Assembly (NCBI RefSeq): GCF_004212215.1
Contig: NZ_QVFV01000001.1
Location: 334,740-398,739, forward strand
Origin: Leptolyngbya iicbica LK
GTDB lineage: Bacteria > Cyanobacteriota > Cyanobacteriia > Phormidesmidales > Phormidesmidaceae
DNA: 64,000 nt
Direction of reading: 5' to 3'
Under the pieces are notes generated by a model that was given only the letters and a program-made list of their open reading frames with translations, was not told the origin of the DNA and ran no database searches. Positions 27,057 to 39,598 of this stretch are shown in pieces. Made by a program: the position numbers and the translations under genes. How positions within the stretch are numbered: position 1 is the first letter of the stretch; every line of letters starts with the position of its first letter.

Positions 27057-28610
27057 CTAAATCTCCTCGTCCTGCACACCCTGGACAATGCGCGAGAGTT
27101 CGCTCTTTTCATCAACAGCGATGCGCGTGGGAGAACCGCTAATGACGCGCTCCAAGTTGCGGAAGGAATCCTTAATGTCGGGACCACCATCGGTAATCTG
27201 ATACTCGCGAATGCCCTTGTCGTGCCAGGAACCGCGCATTTTGAAGACGTTGAGGGCGCGCGACATTTCGCCCCGCACTTCCACATACTGAAGCATCAAA
27301 ATGGTGTCGGTAATGGTGGAAATATGTGACTCGGTAATGGAGTGCAGACCCATGAACTGCTCGGTGGTGTTGGTGAAAAAGCCAGTGATTTCTTCCTGCT
27401 TAGCGTAACCCGTCACCCCAATCACAAACTGTCGGAAAGAACTGTTGCTCACGCCGCGGTCTAAGGCCGAGAGGGAATCGATCGCAATTCGGGCTGGTTT
27501 AAATTGCGAAATCTGCGACTTGATAATTTGCAAGTGATCTTCTAAGCCCGCCGATTCGGGGTAAGCGCAGAGAATTTTTAACAGCCCTCGCTGTTCCAAA
27601 TCTTCAAAATCAATCCCCCAAGATGTGGCGTTGCGCAGTAATTGAGCGCGGGACTCTTCGTAAGCAAACAAAATCGCCTTTTCGCCATTAGCGCAGCCGT
27701 TTTCTAAGAACTTGCTGACTAGCAGTGTCTTGCCCGTGCCAGTGGCTCCAGTCGCCAGAATAATGGAATCGCGGAAAAAGCCACCGCCACACATTTCGTC
27801 CAAGGTCTGGACCCCAGACGACACCCGCACGTTGGACGATCGCTGCGTGAGCCGCATCGCCCCGAGAGGAAAGATGTTGATGCCGTTATCAATAATCGTG
27901 AAGGGATATTCTCCCTTCATGTGGGTGGTGCCCCGCAGTTTCAAAATCTCAATGGTGCGGCGGCGGCGCTCACCTTCCAGCACATTACGAACGATCACCA
28001 CATTGTCAGAGACAAACTCTTCCACGCCATAACGCGCAACGGGGCCGTACTCGTCAACCCGCTCGGTGGTCATGATGCTGGTGACGCCCATTTGTTTGAG
28101 TCGCGCCGATAGGCGAAAAATTTCTCGCCGGACCACTGAGGCCGCATCATATTGCTGAAAAATCGCGGTCACCGAGTCGATAGATACGCGCTGCGCTTTG
28201 TATTTGCGAATGGCATATTGAATGCGCTCGATCAGCGCCGACAAGTCAAAGTTACCGACAACATCTTGACCTTCGGGATCGGGTGACGCATCAAGGATAA
28301 AGAGCTTGCCGTCATCAATCAGTTTTTGCAAATCCCAGCCAAAACTGAGGGCGTTTTTGACAATATCGGCGGGCGATTCTTCAAAGGTGACGAATACCCC
28401 AGGTTCGTCAAAATGGACGATGCCCAAATACAAAAATTGCACCGCCATCAGGGTTTTACCAGTCCCTGAAGTGCCGCTCACCAGGGTCGTGCGCCCAACT
28501 GGCAAACCGCCATGAGTAATATCGTCAAACCCTTCGATTAGGGTGCGAATTTTAGCAATGCTGTTAGAGCGCGTAATTGAATAAATATCAATGTCAGAAG
28601 ATTGACTCAT
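27057..28610 (-). CDS. kaiC: Circadian clock ATPase/kinase KaiC
   Basis: A 517-residue double-RecA protein that forms the hexameric clock core. The CI P-loop is GTSGTGKTLMAVQF with catalytic Glu pair in VTFEESP. The CII P-loop is GATGTGKTLLVSKF with FAYEES. The phosphorylated Ser-Thr pair is in SHISTITDTILML, followed by FKMRGSWHDKGIREY. The KaiA-binding A-loop and tail (PTRIAVDEKSELSRIVQGV) are intact. It lies 184 bases after kaiB on the same strand. The full set of motifs argues for a functional oscillator protein of the KaiC1 type. Confidence 0.98.
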   Translation of the reverse strand: MSQSSDIDIYSITRSNSIAKIRTLIEGFDDITHGGLPVGRTTLVSGTSGTGKTLMAVQFLYLGIVHFDEPGVFVTFEESPADIVKNALSFGWDLQKLIDDGKLFILDASPDPEGQDVVGNFDLSALIERIQYAIRKYKAQRVSIDSVTAIFQQYDAASVVRREIFRLSARLKQMGVTSIMTTERVDEYGPVARYGVEEFVSDNVVIVRNVLEGERRRRTIEILKLRGTTHMKGEYPFTIIDNGINIFPLGAMRLTQRSSNVRVSSGVQTLDEMCGGGFFRDSIILATGATGTGKTLLVSKFLENGCANGEKAILFAYEESRAQLLRNATSWGIDFEDLEQRGLLKILCAYPESAGLEDHLQIIKSQISQFKPARIAIDSLSALDRGVSNSSFRQFVIGVTGYAKQEEITGFFTNTTEQFMGLHSITESHISTITDTILMLQYVEVRGEMSRALNVFKMRGSWHDKGIREYQITDGGPDIKDSFRNLERVISGSPTRIAVDEKSELSRIVQGVQDEEI

Positions 28611-28794
28611 GGAGTTTATAAAACAGCCTTAGTTATTAACTAGCAAAGAGTTATTGAAAGTCACACTCAAGCCATAAGCCTATCGCGATCGCGGCACATT
28701 GAAAACTGTCGTTAATGACCTGTCGGCCTTTGGTGCCGTTGATCTAGACCGCTACTCAGGGCCGATGTCAGAGACGCCATCCCGCGAGTCTTCT

Positions 28795-29109
28795 CTAGTT
28801 GTAGAGATCGTCCTCACGTAGTTCTTCGTAGAGCAAATCGAGCCCAATCAATACCCGCTCGCGATCGGACAAATCACCAATAATTTTGCGTACTGGCGGC
28901 GGCAGAATTTTGGCCAGGGTGGGCGTCGCCAAAATCTTATCTTCTTCGGCTAGCTGGGGATTTTTCAGTACGTCAATCACCTTGAGCGCATAAACGCCTT
29001 GGAATTCTTGTTCTAGGATTTGATTGAGCGTTTTCAGCGCACGCACCGAGTTGGGCGTGTTGCCAGCTACATAAAGCTTGAGGACGTAGGTTTTCTTAGC
29101 GGGAGTCAT
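28795..29109 (-). CDS. kaiB: Circadian clock protein KaiB
   Basis: A 104-residue thioredoxin-like, fold-switching protein that binds phosphorylated KaiC and captures KaiA. The start [29 protein letters not shown] is the family hallmark; a TTG five codons upstream is in frame but unlikely. It ends with the acidic tail [10 protein letters not shown]. It precedes kaiC in the usual kaiB-kaiC order. kaiA, normally just upstream, is not found here: the next gene upstream is a lysozyme. Confidence 0.97.
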
Positions 29110-29519
29110 TGATTCATCAACCAAAGTTAAGGGAACGGGTTTAAGCGCGGATGGCGAATTACAGGAGACGACCAGCCTCAGCAGCTCAGAGAGATGCTAA
29201 TGGAGCTCGGGACATACTGACCCGGAAAGCGCGGCAAGCTTACGGAGAAGCTACAGCAAAAACCTAGCGATTCAACCTAACTCTAGGTCAAACGCCTTAA
29301 TTTTGGGACTGAGCACATTTACTTTTGTCTTGATCCTTAACCTATCAAGGCACCTTAAAAGGTAACTGATCAAAGCCGATTTTTTTTAAGATTTTCGGGG
29401 CGAATTGAGACGTCTGCAGCGATCGCTGACGCTGTGACGGAGCGGTGTCTCCCAGTTGCGCTTGCCGCAGGGTGGACCGATTGGCGAGTGAGGGATGCTG
29501 GCGCGATCGCCCTCAAATC
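29110..29519. other. 410-base region upstream of kaiB, no kaiA
   Basis: No open frame of useful length on either strand and no KaiA-like motif. It probably holds the kaiBC promoter. A short palindrome ACCTTTTAAGGT (on the minus strand, near 29,351-29,364) and a run of T near 29,380 are the only visible structures. Confidence 0.45.
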
Positions 29520-30287
29520 CTAGTGAATGAATTGTTGGTAATCTTGGCTCAAAAATAGTGCCCTCTCAGCATCGCGCCGCCGCACCAAACCGGGCAACGT
29601 TGCCCCACCGGCCTTGACCCAACGGGTAAACTCATCGGCGGCCCCAGCGTAATCGCCCGCGTTGAGTTTGCGGAGCAACGTCGAGTTGCCAAACGCCCCC
29701 AAACCGACGTTAAAGCTAAAGGAAACCAGGGCCGAAAATTGGTCGCTGTTGAGAGGCACTTGCACGCGATCGCGCACCCCGGTTTCAAACAGCTCTAAAT
29801 CGGTTTTGAGAATGTCTTCCGCCTCTTGTTCCGAGATGGTCATCCCGGCCCGCACCTGGGGATCGCCCGCCGCCGAAGTATGGCCATAGCCAATCGTCCA
29901 AATGCCGACCGAGTCTTGATAGGCTTGCAGCTCTCGCCCTTCAAAATGTTTGATGATTGCGAGGCCCGCGTCATTGATGTGGTCGGTGCCTGAGCTGGGG
30001 GGCGGGGCGGGCGGAGTCGGTTTCGGATTGGGCTCTTCCGTCGCTTTCAGGGCAACCGTCATTGCTTGGGGATAATCTTCGCGCATAAACCAAGAGCGCA
30101 CGGCTTGAATATTCAAGACTTGCTCGTCTGGATTAGTCTTCGAGGGATACTTAGTCAGCCGGGAAATCCAGTAACCGCCCTCCATTAAATAGATCGCTTT
30201 GCTCGTTTCTTTGATCCAGGTGCCCATGGGGATTTGTCCGGAAATACACAGCCCAACTTTAGAGTCGGCATCAAGGCTCGCATTCAA
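29520..30287 (-). CDS. Lysozyme (glycoside hydrolase family 24) with N-terminal extra domain
   Basis: A 255-residue protein. Residues about 100-255 are a phage-T4-type lysozyme: IKHFEGRELQAYQDSVGIWTIGYGHT contains the catalytic Glu, Asp and Thr in order, and NVGLGAFGNSTLLRKLN follows. A Pro-rich linker (about residues 85-100) joins it to an N-terminal segment of about 80 residues, perhaps SH3-like. No signal peptide is evident. The proposed start is TTG at 30,287; an ATG at 30,227 is possible. No other phage genes are nearby, so this is more likely a host cell-wall enzyme of phage ancestry. Confidence 0.85.
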   Translation of the reverse strand: MNASLDADSKVGLCISGQIPMGTWIKETSKAIYLMEGGYWISRLTKYPSKTNPDEQVLNIQAVRSWFMREDYPQAMTVALKATEEPNPKPTPPAPPPSSGTDHINDAGLAIIKHFEGRELQAYQDSVGIWTIGYGHTSAAGDPQVRAGMTISEQEAEDILKTDLELFETGVRDRVQVPLNSDQFSALVSFSFNVGLGAFGNSTLLRKLNAGDYAGAADEFTRWVKAGGATLPGLVRRRDAERALFLSQDYQQFIH

Positions 30288-30321
30288 AGCCGTCCCGACT
30301 CATCATGGGGGCTCATTGGTT

Positions 30322-30354
30322 GCTGCCTCAGTCTAGTTTAGAAACTCAGGCAGC
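30322..30354. other. Hairpin between divergent lysozyme and M16 genes
   Basis: GCTGCCTCAGT (30,322-30,332) and ACTCAGGCAGC (30,344-30,354) pair at 10 of 11 positions with an 11-base loop. It lies just upstream of the lysozyme start in the divergent gap and could be an operator. No T-run follows. Confidence 0.4.
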
Positions 30355-30586
30355 GGCGCATGAAACCCAGCAATTGCAACGATCTGCAAACTCTCGGGTC
30401 AGCTAATCAAGCCACCTTGCCATGCCCCAAATCGAGGTCGACTGATACAAACTTTTGTTGCGCCTAGCGGCCTGATCGTCAGGGTAGACGGACATTATGG
30501 CGAAGAACTCAGGTGACGGTAGAACTTCCCGATCGCAGCCGTTAAGATAGGTGAAGTTAGTTATCCGCTCGGAGTACCCGAATTTA

Positions 30587-31915
30587 ATGACAGCCGCGAT
30601 CGCCGATCATTCGTTTCAATCTGCTTTGGCAGTCCCCACCGTGCGGCGATTGGATAACGGACTCACCATCATTGCGCAACAAACCCCGACGGATGCAGTC
30701 AACCTGAATCTCTGGTTTCGGGTGGGGTCGGCGGTCGAGTCAGACAGCATCAATGGCATGGCCCACTTTTTGGAGCACATGCTGTTTAAGGGCACCGACC
30801 ACCTGCCCCAAGGGGAATTTGAGCGCCGCATTGAGGCCCGGGGCGGGGTCGCCAATGCCGCCACCAGCCAAGACTATACGCACTTCTATTTCACCAGTGC
30901 ACCGCAGGATTTTGCGGCCCTTGCGCCCTTGCAAATCGAACTGGTGCTGAATCCACGCCTCGCGATATCAGACTTTGAACGGGAGCGATCGGTGATTTTG
31001 GAAGAGATCGCCCGCGCCCACGACAACCCCCGACGGCGCATCTTTGCGCGATCGATGGCGATGACCTTTGACCGGCTGCCCTATCGGCGATCGGTGTTGG
31101 GCACCGCTGCGGTGGTCAAATCGCTAACCGCCCAGCAAATGCGGGACTTTCATCACTATTGGTATCAGCCCGAAAGAATCACCGCCGTCGCCGTCGGCAA
31201 CCTCCCAGAAGAGGAACTCATTCAAACGGTAGCGGCTGGCTTTGAGCAGGCACTGGCCCGCCGTCAGCGAGTCGACGAGAGCCGCAACCCTGCCACTCAA
31301 GTGTGTCGCTCGGCCCCAGAAGCGCCGTTCGCGACAATCCAGCGTCACTCCTTTACGGATGCGGCGTTGCAGCAAGCCCGACTGGTGTTGAGCTGGCGGG
31401 TGCCGGGCCTCACGGATGTGGAACAGACGAATGCGCTAGATGTGTTGACGTCTATTTTGGCGCGGGGGCGACTGTCTCGCCTCGTGCGCGACCTGCGAGA
31501 GCAGCAGCAGCTCGTCACCAGCATCGCCGCCAGCAATATGTCGTACTGGCAGCAGGGTGTCTTTACTATTGCCGCCAGCCTACCCACGGAAAATATTGAG
31601 ACGGTGGAAGCAGCGATCGTCGATCATGTGCAGCGGGTGCAGACTGACCCCGTCGCGCTAGCAGAGTTGCAGCGGGTGCAGACCCAAGTCGCTAACCGTT
31701 ATGTCTTTGACAGCGAAAGCCCCAGCGACCTGGCCGGGCTCTATGGGTATTACCAAACCCTCACCGGGCAGTTGCAGCCAGCTTTGCATTACCCCAATGA
31801 GATTCAGCGACTGACGCCCGCCGATATTCAAATGGCAGCGCAAATCTACCTCTCGACGCAAGCCTACGGTGCCTTGCACATTTTGCCCACCGCTGCCCCG
31901 TCCACAATCTCGTGA
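30587..31915 (+). CDS. M16 family zinc metallopeptidase
   Basis: About 442 residues. The inverted zinc motif HXXEH is present as MAHFLEHMLFKGT near residue 64, with the downstream Glu in the ERSVILEEIARAHDNPR region. The second, inactive M16 half occupies the C-terminal 200 residues, ending TPADIQMAAQIYLS. It resembles processing-peptidase-like proteins, often encoded as pairs in cyanobacteria; no partner is in the window. An in-frame GTG at 30,551 is an alternative start. It is followed by the TIR island about 100 bases downstream. Confidence 0.92.
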   Translation: MTAAIADHSFQSALAVPTVRRLDNGLTIIAQQTPTDAVNLNLWFRVGSAVESDSINGMAHFLEHMLFKGTDHLPQGEFERRIEARGGVANAATSQDYTHFYFTSAPQDFAALAPLQIELVLNPRLAISDFERERSVILEEIARAHDNPRRRIFARSMAMTFDRLPYRRSVLGTAAVVKSLTAQQMRDFHHYWYQPERITAVAVGNLPEEELIQTVAAGFEQALARRQRVDESRNPATQVCRSAPEAPFATIQRHSFTDAALQQARLVLSWRVPGLTDVEQTNALDVLTSILARGRLSRLVRDLREQQQLVTSIAASNMSYWQQGVFTIAASLPTENIETVEAAIVDHVQRVQTDPVALAELQRVQTQVANRYVFDSESPSDLAGLYGYYQTLTGQLQPALHYPNEIQRLTPADIQMAAQIYLSTQAYGALHILPTAAPSTIS

Positions 31916-32012
31916 CCCATCCACGCAAGATTTAGATGCAATTAGCAAACTGAGGAGAGCCACTTCCCCTTGGTTCCTGCTCCTGTCCCTTATTGAGGCG
32001 ACCTTCATAGCA

Positions 32013-32834
32013 TTAGTGATTTTGACCCAATAGTGTAGCAATCTCCGTTGCAGTATTTCTTACATCAGGTGCAATATCTTTGACAGCATCCGCGGCCTCA
32101 ATCAAACCCTCTGCACCCAAATTTAAGAAAGATGTATTAGGTGATTTTCGGGAACTTTCAGAAACCAAAACATCAGTCATTTCTGAAATACGTTGGGCAT
32201 CTTCCAAACGGTCAGAAGGCATCTTTTGTAATGCTGCTTCCAGATTGGTCAGCAAGATTTTCAGCCTTTGGTGTTGGGTAAGATCACCCCAGGTTATATC
32301 GTTAATTGTAGGAAAACATCCAGTATTGTGAACATTTCCCCTCATGCCGGCAGTGCCGCCAAAAGCAACCGGGCCAATGATTTCCCCAATTTCAATATCG
32401 CTGAAGGATTTAGCGGCAGAGCGCTCACTCGATTTCATCTCGACGCGAGTGATGGCTCGTCTCAGTTGTAAGGCCAGCTCGTCAAAATCTGTAGTCTTGT
32501 CCACTTTGATAGCCTGACGATCAGAAACCAGAGGCCAGATCCAGTTGTGGGTTGCTTCATCATCCAGCAACAGTGGAACAACAAGTTTGTCTCCTTCAAG
32601 AGCGGAGACTAGTTCTTGCTTGACCCAATGACTACGTTGTGCGTGACGTGATAACACCAAAACAACGGCCCGAGCCTCCGCGATTTCACGAGCCACCTGG
32701 ACTGAAAACTCTTCCCCCGCAACTAGGGTTTCTACGTCCAGGCAGGTAGATAGGTGGTACGGTTGGAGAGCATTTGCTAGTCGTAAAGCTACACCACTAT
32801 CTTGTCTAGTGTACGAAATAAAAACGTCATGCAT
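32013..32834 (-). CDS. TIR-domain protein with C-terminal helical region
   Basis: A 273-residue protein. Residues 1-130 are a TIR domain: MHDVFISYTRQDSGVALRLA, DVETLVAGEEF, and SHWVKQELVSALEGDKLVVPLLL with Trp70 and the putative NADase Glu74. Residues 140-273 are a separate region: a Gly-rich stretch GGTAGMRGNVHNTG, then predicted helices (LLTNLEAALQKMPSD, AADAVKDIAPDVRNTATEIA). I do not recognise it. The start ATG overlaps the stop of the upstream TIR gene by 8 bases (ATGCATGA), implying coupled translation. G+C is low and no HIP1 octamer is seen across this gene. Confidence 0.85.
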   Translation of the reverse strand: MHDVFISYTRQDSGVALRLANALQPYHLSTCLDVETLVAGEEFSVQVAREIAEARAVVLVLSRHAQRSHWVKQELVSALEGDKLVVPLLLDDEATHNWIWPLVSDRQAIKVDKTTDFDELALQLRRAITRVEMKSSERSAAKSFSDIEIGEIIGPVAFGGTAGMRGNVHNTGCFPTINDITWGDLTQHQRLKILLTNLEAALQKMPSDRLEDAQRISEMTDVLVSESSRKSPNTSFLNLGAEGLIEAADAVKDIAPDVRNTATEIATLLGQNH

Positions 32835-33243
32835 TGTGATTCTCCACTCGGTCGCTCAACTGTGAGAGATATTTGTCAACATCTTCGTCTGTCAGGTTCA
32901 AAAGATTGTTCGTTCCCAGCAGAGAGAGTATGCCAAGTTCTTGCAACTCTGACTCCGAAGGACCGTAGCGAATCGCGACGATGCGCTTATTGCGGACAAG
33001 AATAGCGCCGACCTCGGCCAGAACCCAAGGTCGGCGCAAGGAGGACCTAGTGAAAAGTACGAGCAACTCGTCGCAGATCGCTAGCTCGTCTAGAATCTTC
33101 CTTCGGAAATCATCTCCGTACTCAATTTCACCTGCATCTAAGAAAACTTTAGCGCCTGTGGCCTCTACTTTGGGTTTTAGCAAGTTGGCGACGACATACT
33201 TGTCATCGCTGCCATGAGAGAAAAAGACTCGATATGGTTGCAT
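32827..33243 (-). CDS. Stand-alone TIR-domain protein
   Basis: A 138-residue protein that is nearly all TIR domain: YRVFFSHGSDDKYVVANLL, KVFLDAGEIEYGDDFRRKI, LLVLFTRSSLRRPWVLAEV with Trp73 and Glu77. The Glu lies at the position needed for NAD+ cleavage in SARM1-type TIRs. It is the first gene of a two-gene minus-strand unit with the 273-residue TIR protein. It diverges from the pentapeptide/TIR gene across a 181-base gap. A role in defence signalling or self-sensing is inferred only from domain content. Confidence 0.85.
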   Translation of the reverse strand: MQPYRVFFSHGSDDKYVVANLLKPKVEATGAKVFLDAGEIEYGDDFRRKILDELAICDELLVLFTRSSLRRPWVLAEVGAILVRNKRIVAIRYGPSESELQELGILSLLGTNNLLNLTDEDVDKYLSQLSDRVENHNA

Positions 33244-33267
33244 ATGAGTGCACTCTGTTGCCTAGAT

Positions 33268-33302
33268 GCCCTCAACCTCACAAGACTAGTAACTTGAAGG
33301 GC
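33268..33302. promoter_or_regulatory. Candidate operator: inverted repeat between divergent TIR genes
   Basis: GCCCTCAA (33,268-33,275) and TTGAAGGGC (33,294-33,302) form an inverted repeat with one unpaired base, centred in the gap between the two divergent TIR transcription units. No T-run follows, so a protein-binding site is more likely than a terminator. Confidence 0.35.
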
Positions 33303-33424
33303 ATACCGCTTAACTCATGATAAGTCAGTGATAGATCGAGATGCTGACATCGCAACGCTTTTGTTCAAGCTGGCTGGCTCGGATTAACGTTGCTAAATTG
33401 GTGACATCGCTAGGACACGCAACA

Positions 33425-34549
33425 ATGGCGAGCACAGAACAATTAGCTTTACTCAAACAAGGGGTGGACGTTTGGAATCAGCAAAGGTTAGTGCTGTGGA
33501 ATAAGTTCAATAAACAGCAGCTTTGGGAAGAGCCAAATTGGTTAGCTTCAGAAGAAGGCAAGCTGCTGTTCCCGGATCTTCGGGGTGTCAATCTTAGCGA
33601 AACCAGTCTCGAAAACGTTGACTTGCGAGAGATCAACCTTTTCAAGGCATCATTCCGGAACTCAAATCTTTTTCAGTCTAGGCTCGCTGGAGCCACGTTA
33701 GATGAATCAGATTTTAGTGGGGCTAGCCTAGAACAAGCCGATCTCAGTTTCGCTGATTTGTGTGGTGCAAATCTGAGTGGGGTGAATCTAGTTGCAGCAG
33801 ACCTGACTGGAGCAGACTTGACTGGAGCAGACCTAACCGGGGCAGACTTAGACAGCGCTACTTTCAATATCACTAAACTTTCCGGCACTAAGTTCAACAG
33901 CGCGAACCTAAGCGGCACGATTTTTGCAGGTGTTGATTTAAGTAGTTCCCAAGGGTTGGAAGATTGCAGGCATTCATCCTACAGCCACGTTGACCACCAA
34001 ACTCTCCTGAATAACAGTCAACTACCGCTGTCTTTTCTTCGAGGTGTCGGCTTACCAGATACCCTTATCGATTACATGCCATCTCTGTTGAATAAGCCAA
34101 TTCAATTCTACTCTTGCTTCATCAGCTACTCTCATAAGGATGAGGAATTTGCTAAGCGCCTCCATGCAGACTTACAAGATAAGGGTGTGCGCTGCTGGTA
34201 CGCACCAGAGGATTTGCCGATTGGAGCCAAAATTCGAGCAGGTATTGATCAAGCAATTCGCAGGCATGACAAATTGTTGCTGATTTTGTCGGAGCAGTCC
34301 GTTAACAGTCCGTGGGTGGAAAGCGAAGTGGAGTCAGCGCTGGAGAAAGAGCAAGAGAGCGGGTGTCTAGTGCTATTTCCGGTGAGGATTGATGATGCAG
34401 TGATGGACTCCAGCGATGGATGGGCGGGATTGATTAAGCGATCACGCAACATTGGTAATTTCTGCAACTGGAAAAACTACGATGTCTATCAATCTGTCTT
34501 CGATCGTCTCGTGAAAGACTTGAAACGTTCTCTGTCAGAGACAAGTTGA
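33425..34549 (+). CDS. Pentapeptide-repeat/TIR fusion protein
   Basis: A 374-residue protein starting MASTEQLALLKQGVDVWNQQ, the leader often seen before cyanobacterial pentapeptide repeats. Residues 49-172 form a pentapeptide right-handed helix, A(D/N)LxG type. A linker (173-226) follows, then a TIR domain from FYSCFISYSHKDEEFAKRL (228) to the end, with CWYAPEDLPIGAKI and SPWVESEVESALE carrying Trp297 and Glu301. The arrangement is a known widespread cyanobacterial fusion as I recall it. An upstream ATG at 33,341 is in frame but less likely. It diverges from the two-gene TIR unit. Confidence 0.88.
   Translation: MASTEQLALLKQGVDVWNQQRLVLWNKFNKQQLWEEPNWLASEEGKLLFPDLRGVNLSETSLENVDLREINLFKASFRNSNLFQSRLAGATLDESDFSGASLEQADLSFADLCGANLSGVNLVAADLTGADLTGADLTGADLDSATFNITKLSGTKFNSANLSGTIFAGVDLSSSQGLEDCRHSSYSHVDHQTLLNNSQLPLSFLRGVGLPDTLIDYMPSLLNKPIQFYSCFISYSHKDEEFAKRLHADLQDKGVRCWYAPEDLPIGAKIRAGIDQAIRRHDKLLLILSEQSVNSPWVESEVESALEKEQESGCLVLFPVRIDDAVMDSSDGWAGLIKRSRNIGNFCNWKNYDVYQSVFDRLVKDLKRSLSETS
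33797..33850 (+). repeat. 15-base tandem repeat inside the pentapeptide region
   Basis: Three 15-base units starting GCAGACCTGACTGGA, plus a partial fourth, encode consecutive ADLTG pentapeptides. Units differ at only a few positions, suggesting recent duplication or slippage within the gene. Confidence 0.8.
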
Positions 34550-34710
34550 CCCAGCTGGAATGATTCTATTTTGGGGTGGCCTTAATGAACTGTCAGGGAT
34601 TATTGCTCAACATTTTGTCATCATCATTGACTACCCTTAAATTGCTACTCGTGTCGAGGATATTATTCGTAATAACTGACAACGTTGCCCAGTGACTATC
34701 AGGACTGCGG

Positions 34711-36009
34711 GTGCAACCATCGGGGCTGTTGACCACATTTATGCGCGGGGCGGGGGCGGCGCTGAGCGTGCAACTCCTGAGCGCCTGCATCCTTTACGCG
34801 GCGCAGGTGTGGCTGGCCCGCTGGCTGGGCACTACCGATTACGGCGTGTATGAATACGCCACTGCCATCAGCGTCATTGGCGCGTTTATTGCCAGCTTTG
34901 GGCTGCCGGGGGTAGCGCTGCGACTGGTATCGGCCTATCGCGCCCAAAGCGATTGGGCGCGACTGGGGGGGCTCATTGGCGGCAGTTGGCGACAGCTGTT
35001 GCTCGTCAGCATCGGCGTTGCCGGGTGCGCCACTGCCGGGTGGGTCTGGCTGCAATCAACTCGCGACTTGGGGGTCTATACCTGGCCCCTGCTCCTCGGC
35101 ATTTGGAACATTCCGGGCTTGACGCTGCTCAGCCTCCAAAAAGAAATCATTCGGGGCTTTCAGCAAATTGTCTTGGCGTTTGCTCCGTCACTGATTGGGC
35201 AGCCCGTGATGCTGCTAGTGTTGGCGGTTAGTTGGCGATCGCACCGCTCCTTGAGCAGTACCGTCGCGATGGGGCTGAGTCTCATCGCCCTGCTCCTGGT
35301 GCTGCTGTTGCAGTGGGGCTGGTTTCAGACCCGACTCGCGCCCCCCATTCGCCGCCCCCCGCACATTTATGAAACCGCGCAGTGGTGGCGCATCGCCCTG
35401 CCGCTGATGCTGATGGGCGGTTCCTACATGATTTTGAGCCACACCGACACCCTGATGATTGGGCTATTGTTGAACGCCCAAGATGTGGGGATTTACACTG
35501 CCGCGTTAAAAACTGCCGCCTGGGTGCCCTTCATCTTGATGGCGGTTAATGCCATGGCCGCGCCCCTGATCGCCACCCTCTATGCCCAGAATGACCAAGC
35601 CGGGTTGCAGCAACTCGTTTCCACGATCGCCCGCTGGATGTTTTATCCCGCCCTCGCCATGGCGATCGCGATCGTGTACTTTTCGCACCCCATCCTGCAA
35701 TTATTTGGAGCCGAGTTTGTCGCCGCCCAGGGAGCGCTAATTGTTTTGATGCTGGGACAACTCGTGAACGTCGGGGCCGGGTCAGTGGGCTATCTGATGA
35801 CCATGACCACCTACCAAAACCAAGCCGCCGGAGTCATGGCCGCCAGCGCCCTCGTCAACGTGATTTTGAACCTCGTCGGCATTCACTGGTTCGGCATCTT
35901 AGGAGCCGCGATCGCCACCGCCCTCTCCATGGCCATGTGGAATATTTGGCTCTATCGCCTAGTGGTGCAAAAGCTCGGCGTCCGCCCCTCCATCCTCGAT
36001 ACCTTTTGA
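34711..36009 (+). CDS. Oligosaccharide flippase family protein (Wzx/MOP type)
   Basis: A 432-residue membrane protein with about 12 hydrophobic helices. The first reads AALSVQLLSACILYAAQVWLARWLG followed by GTTDYGVYEYATAIS, typical of the polysaccharide branch of the MOP/MATE superfamily that moves lipid-linked sugars across the inner membrane. The start is GTG at 34,711; an ATG eleven codons on (34,741) is also possible. It lies just right of the A+T-rich TIR island; no glycosyltransferases are nearby. Confidence 0.87.
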   Translation: MQPSGLLTTFMRGAGAALSVQLLSACILYAAQVWLARWLGTTDYGVYEYATAISVIGAFIASFGLPGVALRLVSAYRAQSDWARLGGLIGGSWRQLLLVSIGVAGCATAGWVWLQSTRDLGVYTWPLLLGIWNIPGLTLLSLQKEIIRGFQQIVLAFAPSLIGQPVMLLVLAVSWRSHRSLSSTVAMGLSLIALLLVLLLQWGWFQTRLAPPIRRPPHIYETAQWWRIALPLMLMGGSYMILSHTDTLMIGLLLNAQDVGIYTAALKTAAWVPFILMAVNAMAAPLIATLYAQNDQAGLQQLVSTIARWMFYPALAMAIAIVYFSHPILQLFGAEFVAAQGALIVLMLGQLVNVGAGSVGYLMTMTTYQNQAAGVMAASALVNVILNLVGIHWFGILGAAIATALSMAMWNIWLYRLVVQKLGVRPSILDTF

Positions 36010-36151
36010 GGTGCAATCCTGATTGACTGACCAGCTGCCAGCGCCCACTCTCCCCCAAAATGTCGCCTTGAGGACACCCCCACGATCGCTCTTTTCAGCC
36101 CTCAATCACCATCAGTTTGCGGAGGCACCCCACCCGGCTTTCGCCGCTTGG

Positions 36152-36250
36152 CCGAACCTTTCGAGGGGCGTGGGGAAGTTAGGTCCCCACATCGGGGGTT
36201 TGGGGGCCTGCCCCCAAGGGTTCGGCAACGCAGCCCATTAGCTTCCCCAC
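36152..36250. repeat. Nested GC-rich palindromes
   Basis: An outer stem, CCGAACC (36,152-36,158) with GGTTCGG (36,219-36,225), encloses two hairpins: GTGGGGA/TCCCCAC (36,170-36,190) and GGGGGC/GCCCCC (36,202-36,215). The downstream CTTCCCCAC (36,242-36,250) can instead pair with GTGGGGAAG (36,170-36,178), an alternative fold. It fills the middle of the 365-base gap between the flippase and the HAD phosphatase gene, where I see no gene. Confidence 0.65.
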
Positions 36251-36374
36251 ACACTCTCTCACCGCAATCCCATGCACCAATTCTCGTCGTCAGCAAATTT
36301 GTGCTCCCTCGCCCTTGTGATTTGCCCCACCTCTGCGTCACGCTGAAGGGCGATCACTTAAAGGATGCGGCGGC

Positions 36375-37205
36375 ATGACAGACATTCGACTATTGGTGCT
36401 CGACATTGACGGCACAATCGCAGGCAAATCAAACGACGTCACCGAAGGCGTGAAGCAGGCGATCGCCGCCGCTCAGCAACAGGGCGTGCAAGTGGCGATC
36501 GCCACCGGGCGCATGTACCGTTCCGCCGTGCGCTTTCACCAGGCCGTGCAATCGCCCCTGCCGCTGATGTCCTACCAGGGCGCGCTGATCAAAGATCCCG
36601 TTTCCGGCAAACTGTACCGCCACACCCCCCTCTCCCGCGAACACACCCTGGCATTACTCGCCGCCCTCGCCGAGTTAGAAGCCGCCGAACGCCTCTCCAT
36701 TCACCTTTACATCGACGACCAACTGCACGTCCGCGAGATTTTGACCGATACTCGCGAATATGCCGAACGCTCCGGCATTGAGCCGATTCCCGTCGGAGAC
36801 TTAGCCGCTTATTTGAATGGGCAACGCGCGATCAAAACCACCAAGCTGCTCGCCCTCAGTCCCGATCCCACCGTCATCTCCGAATTGCTCAGTCGCTTTA
36901 AGCAGCAGTATCCCCCCGCTGAGCTCTATCTCACCCAGTCCGTGTCCACCTTCTTTGAGGCCACCCACCCCCTCTCCAACAAAGGCGCTGCCGTGAAATA
37001 CCTGGCCGAAGAGCTGCTGGGTCTCACGCCTGATCAGGTCATGACCGTGGGTGACAACTTTAATGACTACGAAATGATTGGCTATGCCGGCGTCGGGGTG
37101 GCGATGGGCGATGCACCCGAAGGCGTTAAAGCGATCGCTGACTGGGTGGCCCCCAGTGTGGAAGATGACGGTGTGGTGAGCGCCATTGAGCAATTTATTT
37201 TGTAG
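36375..37205 (+). CDS. Cof-type HAD-IIB phosphatase
   Basis: A 276-residue cytoplasmic hydrolase. HAD motif I is LLVLDIDGTIAG (nucleophile Asp and acid/base Asp), motif II is VAIATGRMY, the Lys of motif III lies in the SNKGAAVKYL block, and motif IV is MTVGDNFNDYEMI. The C2B cap spans about residues 85-195. Substrates of this family are sugar phosphates or nucleotides such as FMN; specificity cannot be read here. The start ATG is clear. Confidence 0.92.
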   Translation: MTDIRLLVLDIDGTIAGKSNDVTEGVKQAIAAAQQQGVQVAIATGRMYRSAVRFHQAVQSPLPLMSYQGALIKDPVSGKLYRHTPLSREHTLALLAALAELEAAERLSIHLYIDDQLHVREILTDTREYAERSGIEPIPVGDLAAYLNGQRAIKTTKLLALSPDPTVISELLSRFKQQYPPAELYLTQSVSTFFEATHPLSNKGAAVKYLAEELLGLTPDQVMTVGDNFNDYEMIGYAGVGVAMGDAPEGVKAIADWVAPSVEDDGVVSAIEQFIL

Positions 37206-37248
37206 CGATCGCTCGGCTCAGACAGCCCTAAAAAATATTTAAAACAGA

Positions 37249-37330
37249 AAGGACACCGACGACTGGCCGTGTTTCGTCTCGGTGCCCTTACTGGTTCGCT
37301 CCTCACACAGTAGTAACTGTATCGGAGAAA
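37249..37330 (+). ncRNA. Yfr1-like motif candidate
   Basis: A strong hairpin (AAGGACACCGACGAC at 37,249-37,263 with GTCTCGGTGCCCTT at 37,276-37,289, one mismatch and one bulge) is followed nine bases later by CTCCTCACAC (37,299-37,308). That is 10 of the 11 bases of the ACUCCUCACAC core of the cyanobacterial sRNA Yfr1. The 3' hairpin and T-run expected of Yfr1 are not clear, so this is a weak candidate. The remainder of the 37,206-37,728 gap shows nothing else. Confidence 0.22.
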
Positions 37331-37728
37331 CGAGAGTCTGTCACTAGGAATCAACCACTTTCTACTTTAGATTTTCTTATCAGTGGCGCGATTGCCCTCC
37401 TCAGAAGTAGGCCAAAGTGGCCCAGCAAGGAGATTTCAGGCTACCGCGATCGCCCTTCCCAGAGGGCATTAAACTGTCGCGACTTATACCAAACTTAATT
37501 TTGGCTGGCGACGAATATCCTTCCGAATGGGCGATCGATGCCAGCCCTACCGCCGCCACCTAAAACCGTGAGCGTTATAAACCTATAGAGCATCATGGCT
37601 TTATGCCGCTTTATGACAGATTGCCGCGCCGCCGGGATGGATTGCTAAGATCGACCCATACGAGCCGCATCCATGCCACTCCTCTGCAATTCTCAGGCAC
37701 CTTGCGGCACTGCTGCCTGGCTAAACCC

Positions 37729-37890
37729 ATGAAAACGACACTCGCCACCGAGGACGCGATCGCCACCCGCACCTCACTGCAACAGGAAAACCAAGCTCTG
37801 CGATCAGAAAATCGCCGCCTCAAAGCGGAAGTTCAACGGCTGAAGCAGCTTGTGCGGCAATTGGAGTTGCTGGTCAGACGACACTGGTAA
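37729..37890 (+). CDS. Small coiled-coil protein
   Basis: A 53-residue peptide, MKTTLATEDAIATRTSLQQE at the start, then a regular heptad pattern (ENQALRSENRRLKAEVQRL) predicted as a coiled coil. A longer in-frame start at 37,603 adds residues with no such pattern and is less likely. Function unknown; it may mediate dimerisation. It converges on the BciB-like gene with a 15-base gap. Confidence 0.4.
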   Translation: MKTTLATEDAIATRTSLQQENQALRSENRRLKAEVQRLKQLVRQLELLVRRHW

Positions 37891-37905
37891 GGCCCAAAAT
37901 CGGAC

Positions 37906-39102
37906 TTACTCAGGCAGCTTGTATTGACCCACAATGCGCTTCGCAAACTCAGGCACATGCTCCTCCAGCTTTTCGGGATGGTTGCGCTTCACATAGAGAT
38001 AGTTGCGGGTAAAGTGCGAGTCAATGGAAAAGCGGGCGTATTCCAACCCTTTGGGGCCAACCCGCTCAATCACGACGCCCATCAGTTGCGCCGCCCACAT
38101 GGGCAGGGTCACGCCTTTGTCATAAGCGGGAATGCTCTGCTGCACAGCGGCGTGGCGATCGCCCTTGGAATCCACTGGCTGCGTCTCTAACTGATCCATC
38201 ACGATGTCGAGCATTTCTTGCCCGCGCTCATTGCGCACCGTGATCCACTGCCAGCCAAAGGGCGCACCCATGTAGCCCACCACAATGTCCGCCAGTCCAT
38301 TCACATAGTCAAAACAGCTCATACAAGACGGCGCAAACACATCCTTGAGCTGATTGGTTTTGAGCCCAAAGAACGGCACTTTTTCAATGGAGCCGTCTTC
38401 GTGTTTGAAATGCACCCGAAAGTCTTGCATGAACTCGTAATGCACCACGGTTTCCGGCGAGCGGCTGGTGGTTTCCAAAAACTTTTGCAGCCCGGTACGG
38501 GTAACGTTATCCACACAGGGCGTCCCGAGGACGTAAAGCTTTTCCAGCCCTAACTCTTTTTCGACCGCGCGTAGGGCTTGAATCTGGCAGCCGACGCCAA
38601 TTACCAGCAGCCGCTTCATGCCCGACTGTTCGACCTGCTCCAGTACGGAAAGGTTCGGTGAGAGGGTGGGCTTGTTGACCCGCGCCGCCAAAATTTCCTC
38701 TGGCGTGGTGGCGATCACCGGCTTGGGTTGAAAGCGGTCTTCCTCAGTGTTTTGGACGCACACAACCCCTTCGACATGGCCTTGAGTCAGCATGGCGATC
38801 GCAATGGAACTGACGATCCCCGTCCACTGAGCGCCTTCAATGGGCTCGAGCTTGCGGGCCGCCATCATATCGTGGTGCACGCCAAAGTATTGCTCTAGGG
38901 GCTCATCTAAGTCGCGATCGCGGCCATGGGTCTGAGTTTCCAACTCCGGAAACTGCTGATTCAAAAAAGCGCAGGCTTCTTTTACGTAGTGGATGTAATA
39001 GGTGTCGCACAAGCCGCATTCACTACAGAGTTCCTTAGCCGGACGGCGGGCTCCGGGGCGGAGGGCTTTCGCTTTTTTGTGGGCAGACTGAGCCAACGTC
39101 AT
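37906..39102 (-). CDS. bciB: Ferredoxin-dependent 3,8-divinyl chlorophyllide reductase, BciB/Slr1923 type
   Basis: A 398-residue FrhB-family iron-sulfur flavoprotein. It starts MTLAQSAHKKAKALRPG; a 77-codon upstream extension lacks family similarity and is rejected. Cysteine clusters are ELCSECGLCDTYYIH near residue 31 and APSCMSCFDYVNGLADIVVGYMG near residue 260, as in F420-hydrogenase beta subunits, plus VGCQIQALR and LGTPCVDNVTR. In Synechocystis the Slr1923 homologue reduces the 8-vinyl group of divinyl chlorophyllide; family members also include 7-hydroxymethyl chlorophyll a reductase. The assignment to DVR rests on recognised overall similarity. Confidence 0.82.
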   Translation of the reverse strand: MTLAQSAHKKAKALRPGARRPAKELCSECGLCDTYYIHYVKEACAFLNQQFPELETQTHGRDRDLDEPLEQYFGVHHDMMAARKLEPIEGAQWTGIVSSIAIAMLTQGHVEGVVCVQNTEEDRFQPKPVIATTPEEILAARVNKPTLSPNLSVLEQVEQSGMKRLLVIGVGCQIQALRAVEKELGLEKLYVLGTPCVDNVTRTGLQKFLETTSRSPETVVHYEFMQDFRVHFKHEDGSIEKVPFFGLKTNQLKDVFAPSCMSCFDYVNGLADIVVGYMGAPFGWQWITVRNERGQEMLDIVMDQLETQPVDSKGDRHAAVQQSIPAYDKGVTLPMWAAQLMGVVIERVGPKGLEYARFSIDSHFTRNYLYVKRNHPEKLEEHVPEFAKRIVGQYKLPE

Positions 39103-39598
39103 GGGTTCAAAAACAGTTTGTAATAGGAGTCTGACAACCACCTTACCGCAGGGCTTTGACGGTTTCTCGTTGGCGGCAGAAATGTAAAGAATTGCTGCGA
39201 TCGCCCGGCTGTTCGTCGCTGCGCCAGCCCCACCCCCTGTCACTACAACGGTTCCCTCTTTCATGCTCAGGGCTGCCACATGACAGCGACCCTGGCCTGT
39301 TTGCGAAACTTTTGATAAACGGTGGCGAATCAAAAAACTACACTATGCTTAGGTGTGAGTTTCCCGGTCTGGTGAGCCGATTTTGGCCAGACGGTGGGCA
39401 ACCTAGAGACAGCAAGGGAGTTGATCGCCGCGTCGTTATTGCGGCCCGCTGTCAGTCACGGTGTGACTAGCGGCAGGTCTCTCTGCTTGCCTGTTGACGA
39501 GCCTCCTGGGCTAATGGTGGGTCTTAGGTCACCGCTTGGCCGGGTAGTTAGCGAGGTTCACATGTTTGCCGGCAACGTGACCGGACAGGGTCTGTTGA
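39103..39598. other. 496-base divergent gap between bciB and the kinase gene
   Basis: No supported gene. Two open frames here run out of the kinase start or lack ribosome-binding sites. It presumably contains both promoters. No repeat stands out. Confidence 0.4.

Follow-up and report, generated by a model that had tools for sequence, protein, structure and literature searches.

Two adjacent TIR genes and a divergent pentapeptide-TIR gene in an A+T-rich patch of Leptolyngbya iicbica LK: a putative sensor/enzyme pair with a probably separate neighbour

Do three neighbouring genes for TIR-domain proteins in the cyanobacterium Leptolyngbya iicbica LK act as one system, or do they share little more than a site? 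The genes lie in a 64,000-nt stretch of the 5.7 Mb genome (hereafter the window, within which all positions are counted). HIP1 sites, a RuBisCO gene identified by eye and genes of the KaiB/KaiC type point to a cyanobacterial source. Two of them, on the minus strand, encode TIR-B (273 amino acids) and TIR-A (138 amino acids), and the divergent third encodes a protein that we designate pentapeptide-TIR. The reading developed here, to which we give an even chance, is that TIR-A and TIR-B may be a pair with a sensor/enzyme split, by analogy with a characterised two-TIR system, located at a variable defence-type site, and that pentapeptide-TIR is separate from them. As genes, the three look like a new instance of a well-known type of bacterial defence.

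The A+T-rich patch and the TIR pair within it

The island differs from its surroundings in composition, with 47.0% G+C over 31,916-34,710 against 55.1% in the remaining window; the M16 peptidase gene on its left has 59.0% over its full length. An equally low value occurs in about 0.08% of same-size segments taken in 50-base steps, namely in a single one, at 31,900. HIP1 sites, of which the window holds 124 against 2.4 expected, leave their longest gap at 30,604-35,234 (4,639 bases, the runner-up being 1,811 bases; P = 0.012 under uniform site placement). The preliminary description of this DNA had seen no HIP1 between about 31,960 and 34,700; the real gap is larger and exceeds the island, since it also spans the final 1.3 kb of the M16 gene and the start of the flippase-type gene on the right. 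In alignments with the loci of four genus relatives (G387, G388, G389 and G391; G390 was left out), DNA similarity stops at 31,887 (G388) or 31,888 (G387), and earlier in G391 and G389, and restarts at 34,669 (G391) or 34,701 (G388). Because the edges of the patch match these stop and restart points, we define the M16-flippase interval 31889-34668 (no strand), which is A+T-rich, HIP1-free and without DNA similarity to the compared genus loci, as a variable insert. Composition, HIP1 gap and alignment edges together support the view that the patch is an acquired or variable insert.

TIR-B (32013-32834, minus strand) comprises a TIR domain at about residues 2-118, a linker at 147-185 and C-terminal helices at 183-271, and TIR-A, the upstream gene of the pair (32827-33243, minus strand), encodes a stand-alone TIR domain recognised by Pfam TIR_2 and by sequence matches in PDB. 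The genes overlap by 8 bases (ATGCATGA) and a GGAG-like ribosome site, judged by eye, precedes TIR-B; we infer that they form a single translationally coupled operon of two unlike TIR proteins. All three island proteins pass the TIR_2 cut-off of 28 bits (TIR-B 74.6, TIR-A 52.2 and pentapeptide-TIR 86.0), and each has a tryptophan and a glutamate at corresponding positions, W70/E74 in TIR-B, W73/E77 in TIR-A and W297/E301 in pentapeptide-TIR. TIR domains with this glutamate can cleave NAD+. Sequence alignments place it at the catalytic position of SARM1 and AbTir in all three proteins; the fold search covers TIR-B. The preliminary description, which had proposed three TIR genes in an A+T-rich, HIP1-free patch, the 8-base overlap of the two minus-strand genes with a divergent pentapeptide-TIR gene, and these three Trp/Glu pairs, thus agrees with the Pfam scores, the base composition, the coordinates and the alignments. 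The motif does not set the three island genes apart, since of 23 TIR segments counted in the genome 19 have a W...E arrangement (3 of 26 TIR matches were dropped, and any W...E inside a segment was accepted).

By both sequence and fold, the best match of TIR-B is the TIR domain of SARM1, with E74 aligned to the glutamate of the SARM1 WVHKE motif, which we take to be Glu642. Foldseek analysis of the TIR-B AlphaFold model returned SARM1 TIR structures as top matches (E 1.8e-6). The mean predicted local distance difference test (pLDDT) score of this model is 76; residues 1-120 score 72-97 per ten-residue block, and a segment below 50 at residues 147-185 is followed by helices of 21, 18, 4, 17 and 16 residues. 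TIR-A aligns, in its PDB sequence matches, to bacterial TIRs of the TcpB/BtpA type and to AbTir. The TIR assignment and the glutamate position therefore liken the island proteins, in sequence terms, to SARM1-type and AbTir-type NADases, from which they differ in the other parts attached to their TIR domains; activity here is predicted.

A split multi-TIR protein was considered and set aside as an origin of the two genes, since BLAST of TIR-A and TIR-B against the single TIR domains of 19 multi-TIR open reading frames (ORFs) gave no consistent position. Within TIR-A, at 33005-33037, the coding strand also contains a G+C-rich inverted repeat of 13 pairs followed by a T-rich stretch.

A putative sensor/enzyme pair compared with known two-TIR systems

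What might two unlike TIR proteins do together? In Staphylococcus aureus Thoeris, ThsB1 and ThsB2 associate only with a phage capsid protein, and only the active site of ThsB2 is required (PMC12578639). The island resembles this type I two-TIR system in having adjacent unlike TIR genes, one small and one larger, with a plausible division into sensor and enzyme. It is from the ThsB1/ThsB2 analogue that we propose a sensor/enzyme pair for TIR-A and TIR-B, whose hetero-assembly is possible by the same analogy. In an infected cell the two proteins would be brought together, perhaps by a component of the phage or by a scaffold to which the helical tail of TIR-B binds, and at least one of them would cleave NAD+. 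TIR-B, which is SARM1-like and has an extra tail, would be the better candidate for cleavage and could serve as the enzyme or as a docked partner; the outcome might be NAD+ depletion or an ADP-ribose signal. NADase activity, pairing, coupling and a defence role are all what we infer for these genes. More generally, where an operon of two unlike TIR genes lacks an obvious effector gene, signalling may depend on partners whose genes lie elsewhere.

Two-TIR operons recur in the genus. A TIR_2 search of six genus genomes gave 85 places, which merge by frame into 72 TIR genes, 19 of them in L. iicbica LK. Pairs of TIR neighbours no more than 3 kb apart number five, three of them in L. iicbica LK (with gaps of 62, 890 and 579 bases between the TIR matches), one in G388 and one in G390. 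When 19 points were placed at random, at least three pairs within 2 kb arose in 3 of 20,000 trials, a test made after the cluster was seen. One operon, on contig C14 of the same genome (locus L134, 59-2010), encodes a TIR protein, the C-terminal part of which has no name, and then a TIR-GUN4 protein, with a 4-base overlap, and is kept in G388 (locus L202, 3776-5688) at 90% and 43% identity. At least two separate TIR ORFs were also seen in 4 of 13 stretches from other genomes (L184, L185, L186 and L191), a count that represents no frequency because several of the 13 were picked from hints in the hit lists. In one of these, from G439 (L184, 5909-13061), several separate TIR genes form a run, immediately upstream of which lie one gene of recombinase type and one of caspase type, both identified by eye.

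Relatives of the pair itself are distant. At E 0.001, and with the source genome included, the 386 phylum genomes comprise 28 with a match to TIR-A and 22 with one to TIR-B, and the 63 family genomes 29 and 45, respectively. Among the matches listed, those other than self show 22-44% identity confined to the TIR part, and no TIR-B alignment extends beyond residue 161; a scan of a genome collection with TIR-B gave 15 loci, all within residues 1-99. As far as these searches reach, neither protein has close relatives, and the pair is an orphan.

A number of observations weigh against the proposed pair and its placement at a variable, defence-type site. The genome, plasmid and viral-contig searches revealed no homologous counterpart of the TIR-A/TIR-B pair, which leaves its co-conservation unproven. 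Plasmids gave no match to TIR-B; TIR-A matched 25 plasmid records, none reaching 80% coverage, with partial matches of at most 42.7% identity among the 20 of the 25 that were listed, and the TIR part of pentapeptide-TIR has one 43% relative, on a Skermanella plasmid. Phage records held no match to TIR-B or pentapeptide-TIR (TIR-A was not searched there), and a search of viral contigs, by a method that detects close relatives only, was negative for all three genes. The window contains no tRNA, the scanned neighbour proteins include no integrase, and the flanks show no inverted repeats and only short direct ones, none convincing. Promoter-like sites in the island are at chance level (4 against 3.1), as, nearly, are terminator-like sites (likewise 4 against 3.1). 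No ThsA-like or other known partner was recognised in eight flanking proteins at 27,057-39,333 by Pfam, or in six of these by PADLOC. Finally, in streptococcal Thoeris the TIR roles are swapped and the catalytic protein is ThsB1 (PMC12578639); the sensor/enzyme split is therefore not assignable from anatomy.

Other candidate identities were considered. An integrative element with visible ends is not supported, given the lack of a tRNA and of inverted repeats and the shortness of the direct ones. Membership of Thoeris was rejected in view of the missing ThsA in the flank and of the ThcB4 profile, on which the island TIRs score 39.2, 41.3 and 18.5 bits against a cut-off of 220. The Pfam ThsB_TIR cut-off of 21.2 is passed weakly by TIR-B (21.8) and pentapeptide-TIR (28.4) and missed by TIR-A (18.3), all three scores being far below those for TIR_2. 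The PADLOC ThsB profiles are likewise weak on the island TIRs (best 34 bits), and this, together with the flanks, distinguishes the locus from Thoeris. Elsewhere in the genome, STALD-type ThsA (PF18185) gave no match, as did the controls, and macro-domain ThsA was not searched. A retron or RT-TIR assignment was also rejected, as NF042941 matched in the TIR part only, at 26-50 bits against 600.

The TIR-B tail and a helical module of pentapeptide proteins

Could the partner of TIR-B be reached through its tail rather than through TIR-A? Pfam gives no match on the tail, which the preliminary description had called an unknown C-terminal helical region and for which we now have a borderline lead, a possible likeness to a module at the C-terminus of membrane pentapeptide proteins. 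When the tail alone was searched against the 386 phylum genomes, it matched a protein of its own genome with a one-genome E-value of 0.0014 and 28% over 88 amino acids, and pairwise alignment gave 30%. This C16 protein (802 amino acids; contig C16, locus L207, 2840-5248) combines pentapeptides and numerous hydrophobic segments with a helical module at its C-terminus; its Pfam matches are to pentapeptide and decapeptide repeats alone, with no family on the module. In the AlphaFold model of the module, helices of 13, 14, 18, 19 and 16 residues form a run similar to that of TIR-B.

These likenesses suggest a different mechanism, in which TIR-B would be an effector that docks through its tail module onto the membrane pentapeptide C16 protein, in the manner of effector-associated domains (EADs), and TIR-A would merely aid TIR assembly. 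We regard this as rather unlikely. The EAD principle speaks in its favour: in bacteria, cyanobacteria among them, TIR, GUN4 and pentapeptide parts combine with adaptor domains that are small and helical (PMC7159879, PMC8195603). The present case, a cyanobacterium in which a small helical tail occurs along with TIR, pentapeptide and GUN4 parts, resembles the EAD systems (Kaur et al., PMC7159879, PMC8195603) and differs from them in that the tail has no Pfam match and no same-domain partner is seen beside TIR-B, the possible second copy, on contig C16, being borderline. The tail fits EAD adaptors in kind, and the available text of these papers names no domain found here. Telling against docking, the same tail search matched part of an AAA ATPase (identified by eye) of a distant genome nearly as well (E 0.0028). 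Given that these are one-genome E-values from a search of 386 genomes and that the AAA ATPase match is probably due to chance, the C16 match could be due to chance too.

Profile models lend the docking alternative some weight. A model built from two rows, the tails of TIR-B and of the C16 protein, matched 32 of the 63 family genomes at E 0.01, own genome included (a match in G435, at E 0.009, is false). From 44 of 53 places we compiled 42 module ORFs after deduplication, TIR-B and one false match among them; 29 are long (584-856 amino acids, some cut at the locus end) and have, on a crude count, several hydrophobic segments as well as pentapeptide motifs, and by a local model TIR-B alone of the 42 has a TIR domain. 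Because the two-row model contains TIR-B, which limits what the 32 of 63 can say for docking, a further model was built without it. With its 40 rows, one of which was false (L248, trypsin/PDZ-like by eye), TIR-B was the sole match (E 0.0057) among 3,224 sequences, 1,000 of which were shuffled tails. After L248 had been dropped, the model shortened to 115 residues and all filters removed, TIR-B still ranked first of 7,221, at E 0.062; the best shuffled tail in that run reached E 0.29. Comparison of tail and module by hhalign gave probabilities of 57% (local), 31% (global) and, in a further run, 49%, with an aligned core of about 50 residues. A PDB fold search with the module returned nothing significant (best E 0.88), and no module was found in the genes neighbouring the island.

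Because of the AAA ATPase match in particular, we lean only modestly towards homology of the TIR-B tail and the C16 module. A wider proposal, which we consider unlikely, would have membrane pentapeptide proteins act as sensors on which a TIR effector docks, by way of an unnamed C-terminal helical module common to both and widespread in the family. If true, it would provide an adaptor domain linking membrane pentapeptide proteins to NAD+-cleaving defence. Binding of the tail to the module would suggest a trigger for orphan TIR pairs and a role for a common cyanobacterial protein family; if the tail does not bind, the island is one further variable TIR cargo site. In the open-access literature, nothing was recognised as the TIR-A/TIR-B pair or as the tail module.

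The pentapeptide-TIR gene and the genes flanking the insert

Does the third gene belong with the putative sensor/enzyme pair? Pentapeptide-TIR (33425-34549, plus strand, 374 amino acids) diverges from the pair and consists of N-terminal pentapeptide repeats followed by a TIR domain (Pfam Pentapeptide 99 bits, TIR_2 86 bits). Its frame is open from 33341, giving 402 amino acids from the first ATG, the version on which Pfam was run; the ATG at 33425 is the preferred start, inferred from the homologues at loci L204 and L183, and fits the earlier W297/E301 numbering. The TIR part aligns to AbTir with the catalytic glutamate position kept, and the pentapeptide solenoid would be the likely recognition or oligomerising part. 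The search for relatives covered the 386 phylum genomes and, of the 63 family genomes, via TIR_2, the six of the genus. At E 1e-15 the TIR part was found in one of the 386, the source genome itself, at two places, here and on contig C4 (78% identity), and a third copy came from genus genome G391.

Both relatives, that on contig C4 (471 amino acids; locus L183, 7823-9238) and that in G391, have the same part order and, where they align, 57-58% identity. Both lack the TIR pair in their vicinity: scans of 16 kb on C4 and of 10 kb in G391 revealed no second TIR ORF, and the G391 matches to TIR-A and TIR-B are weak and restricted to the TIR domain. The preliminary description had envisaged a transferred unit of all three genes. 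Its acquired or variable nature is upheld by the composition, the HIP1 gap and the DNA edges; its three-gene extent is not supported, and the expected conservation of the third gene beside the TIR pair was absent in both close relatives examined. That the three genes form one transferred unit acting as a single system is thus very unlikely, for all that they have composition and insert boundaries in common, the more so as the third gene lies on the opposite strand. Pentapeptide-TIR is probably independent of the pair and inherited apart from it; its gene adjoins the pair here and stands alone in two relatives. On the Skermanella plasmid mentioned above (L197, 694-6606), two IS256 transposases adjoin the TIR gene, and pentapeptide repeats are encoded by separate genes on the far side.

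The flanks bear on the nature of the site. On the left, an M16 match is present in all 63 family genomes, and a close copy of the M16 peptidase (30551-31915, plus strand) occurs in 59 of the 62 others at 57-87% identity, or 60 of 63 with the source genome; the matches in G393, G432 and G434 are merely at the level of a second M16 gene, about 40% identity. On the right, the polysaccharide flippase-type protein (34711-36009, plus strand), followed by a HAD hydrolase and an FrhB-type protein, is matched in three of the six genus genomes, own genome counted, and in the other two of these, G388 and G391, it adjoins genes other than M16. The site is therefore a gene-order breakpoint, at which a clean empty site cannot be demonstrated. 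Such a breakpoint, together with the lack of close relatives of the pair, would also suit accessory genes of little current function retained by chance; the three open frames, the conserved glutamate positions and the start site before TIR-B speak against this, and we consider it improbable. We read the island as accessory cargo at a variable site, probably with a defence role.

Beyond the M16 gene on the left, at 27057-30287, a phage-type lysozyme gene adjoins KaiB-type and KaiC-type genes. G388, the nearest relative by M16 (87% identity), has different cargo in the slot behind this gene, namely an AbiEii-like gene and an NNH3-NACHT-pentapeptide gene (L126, 1961-5596).

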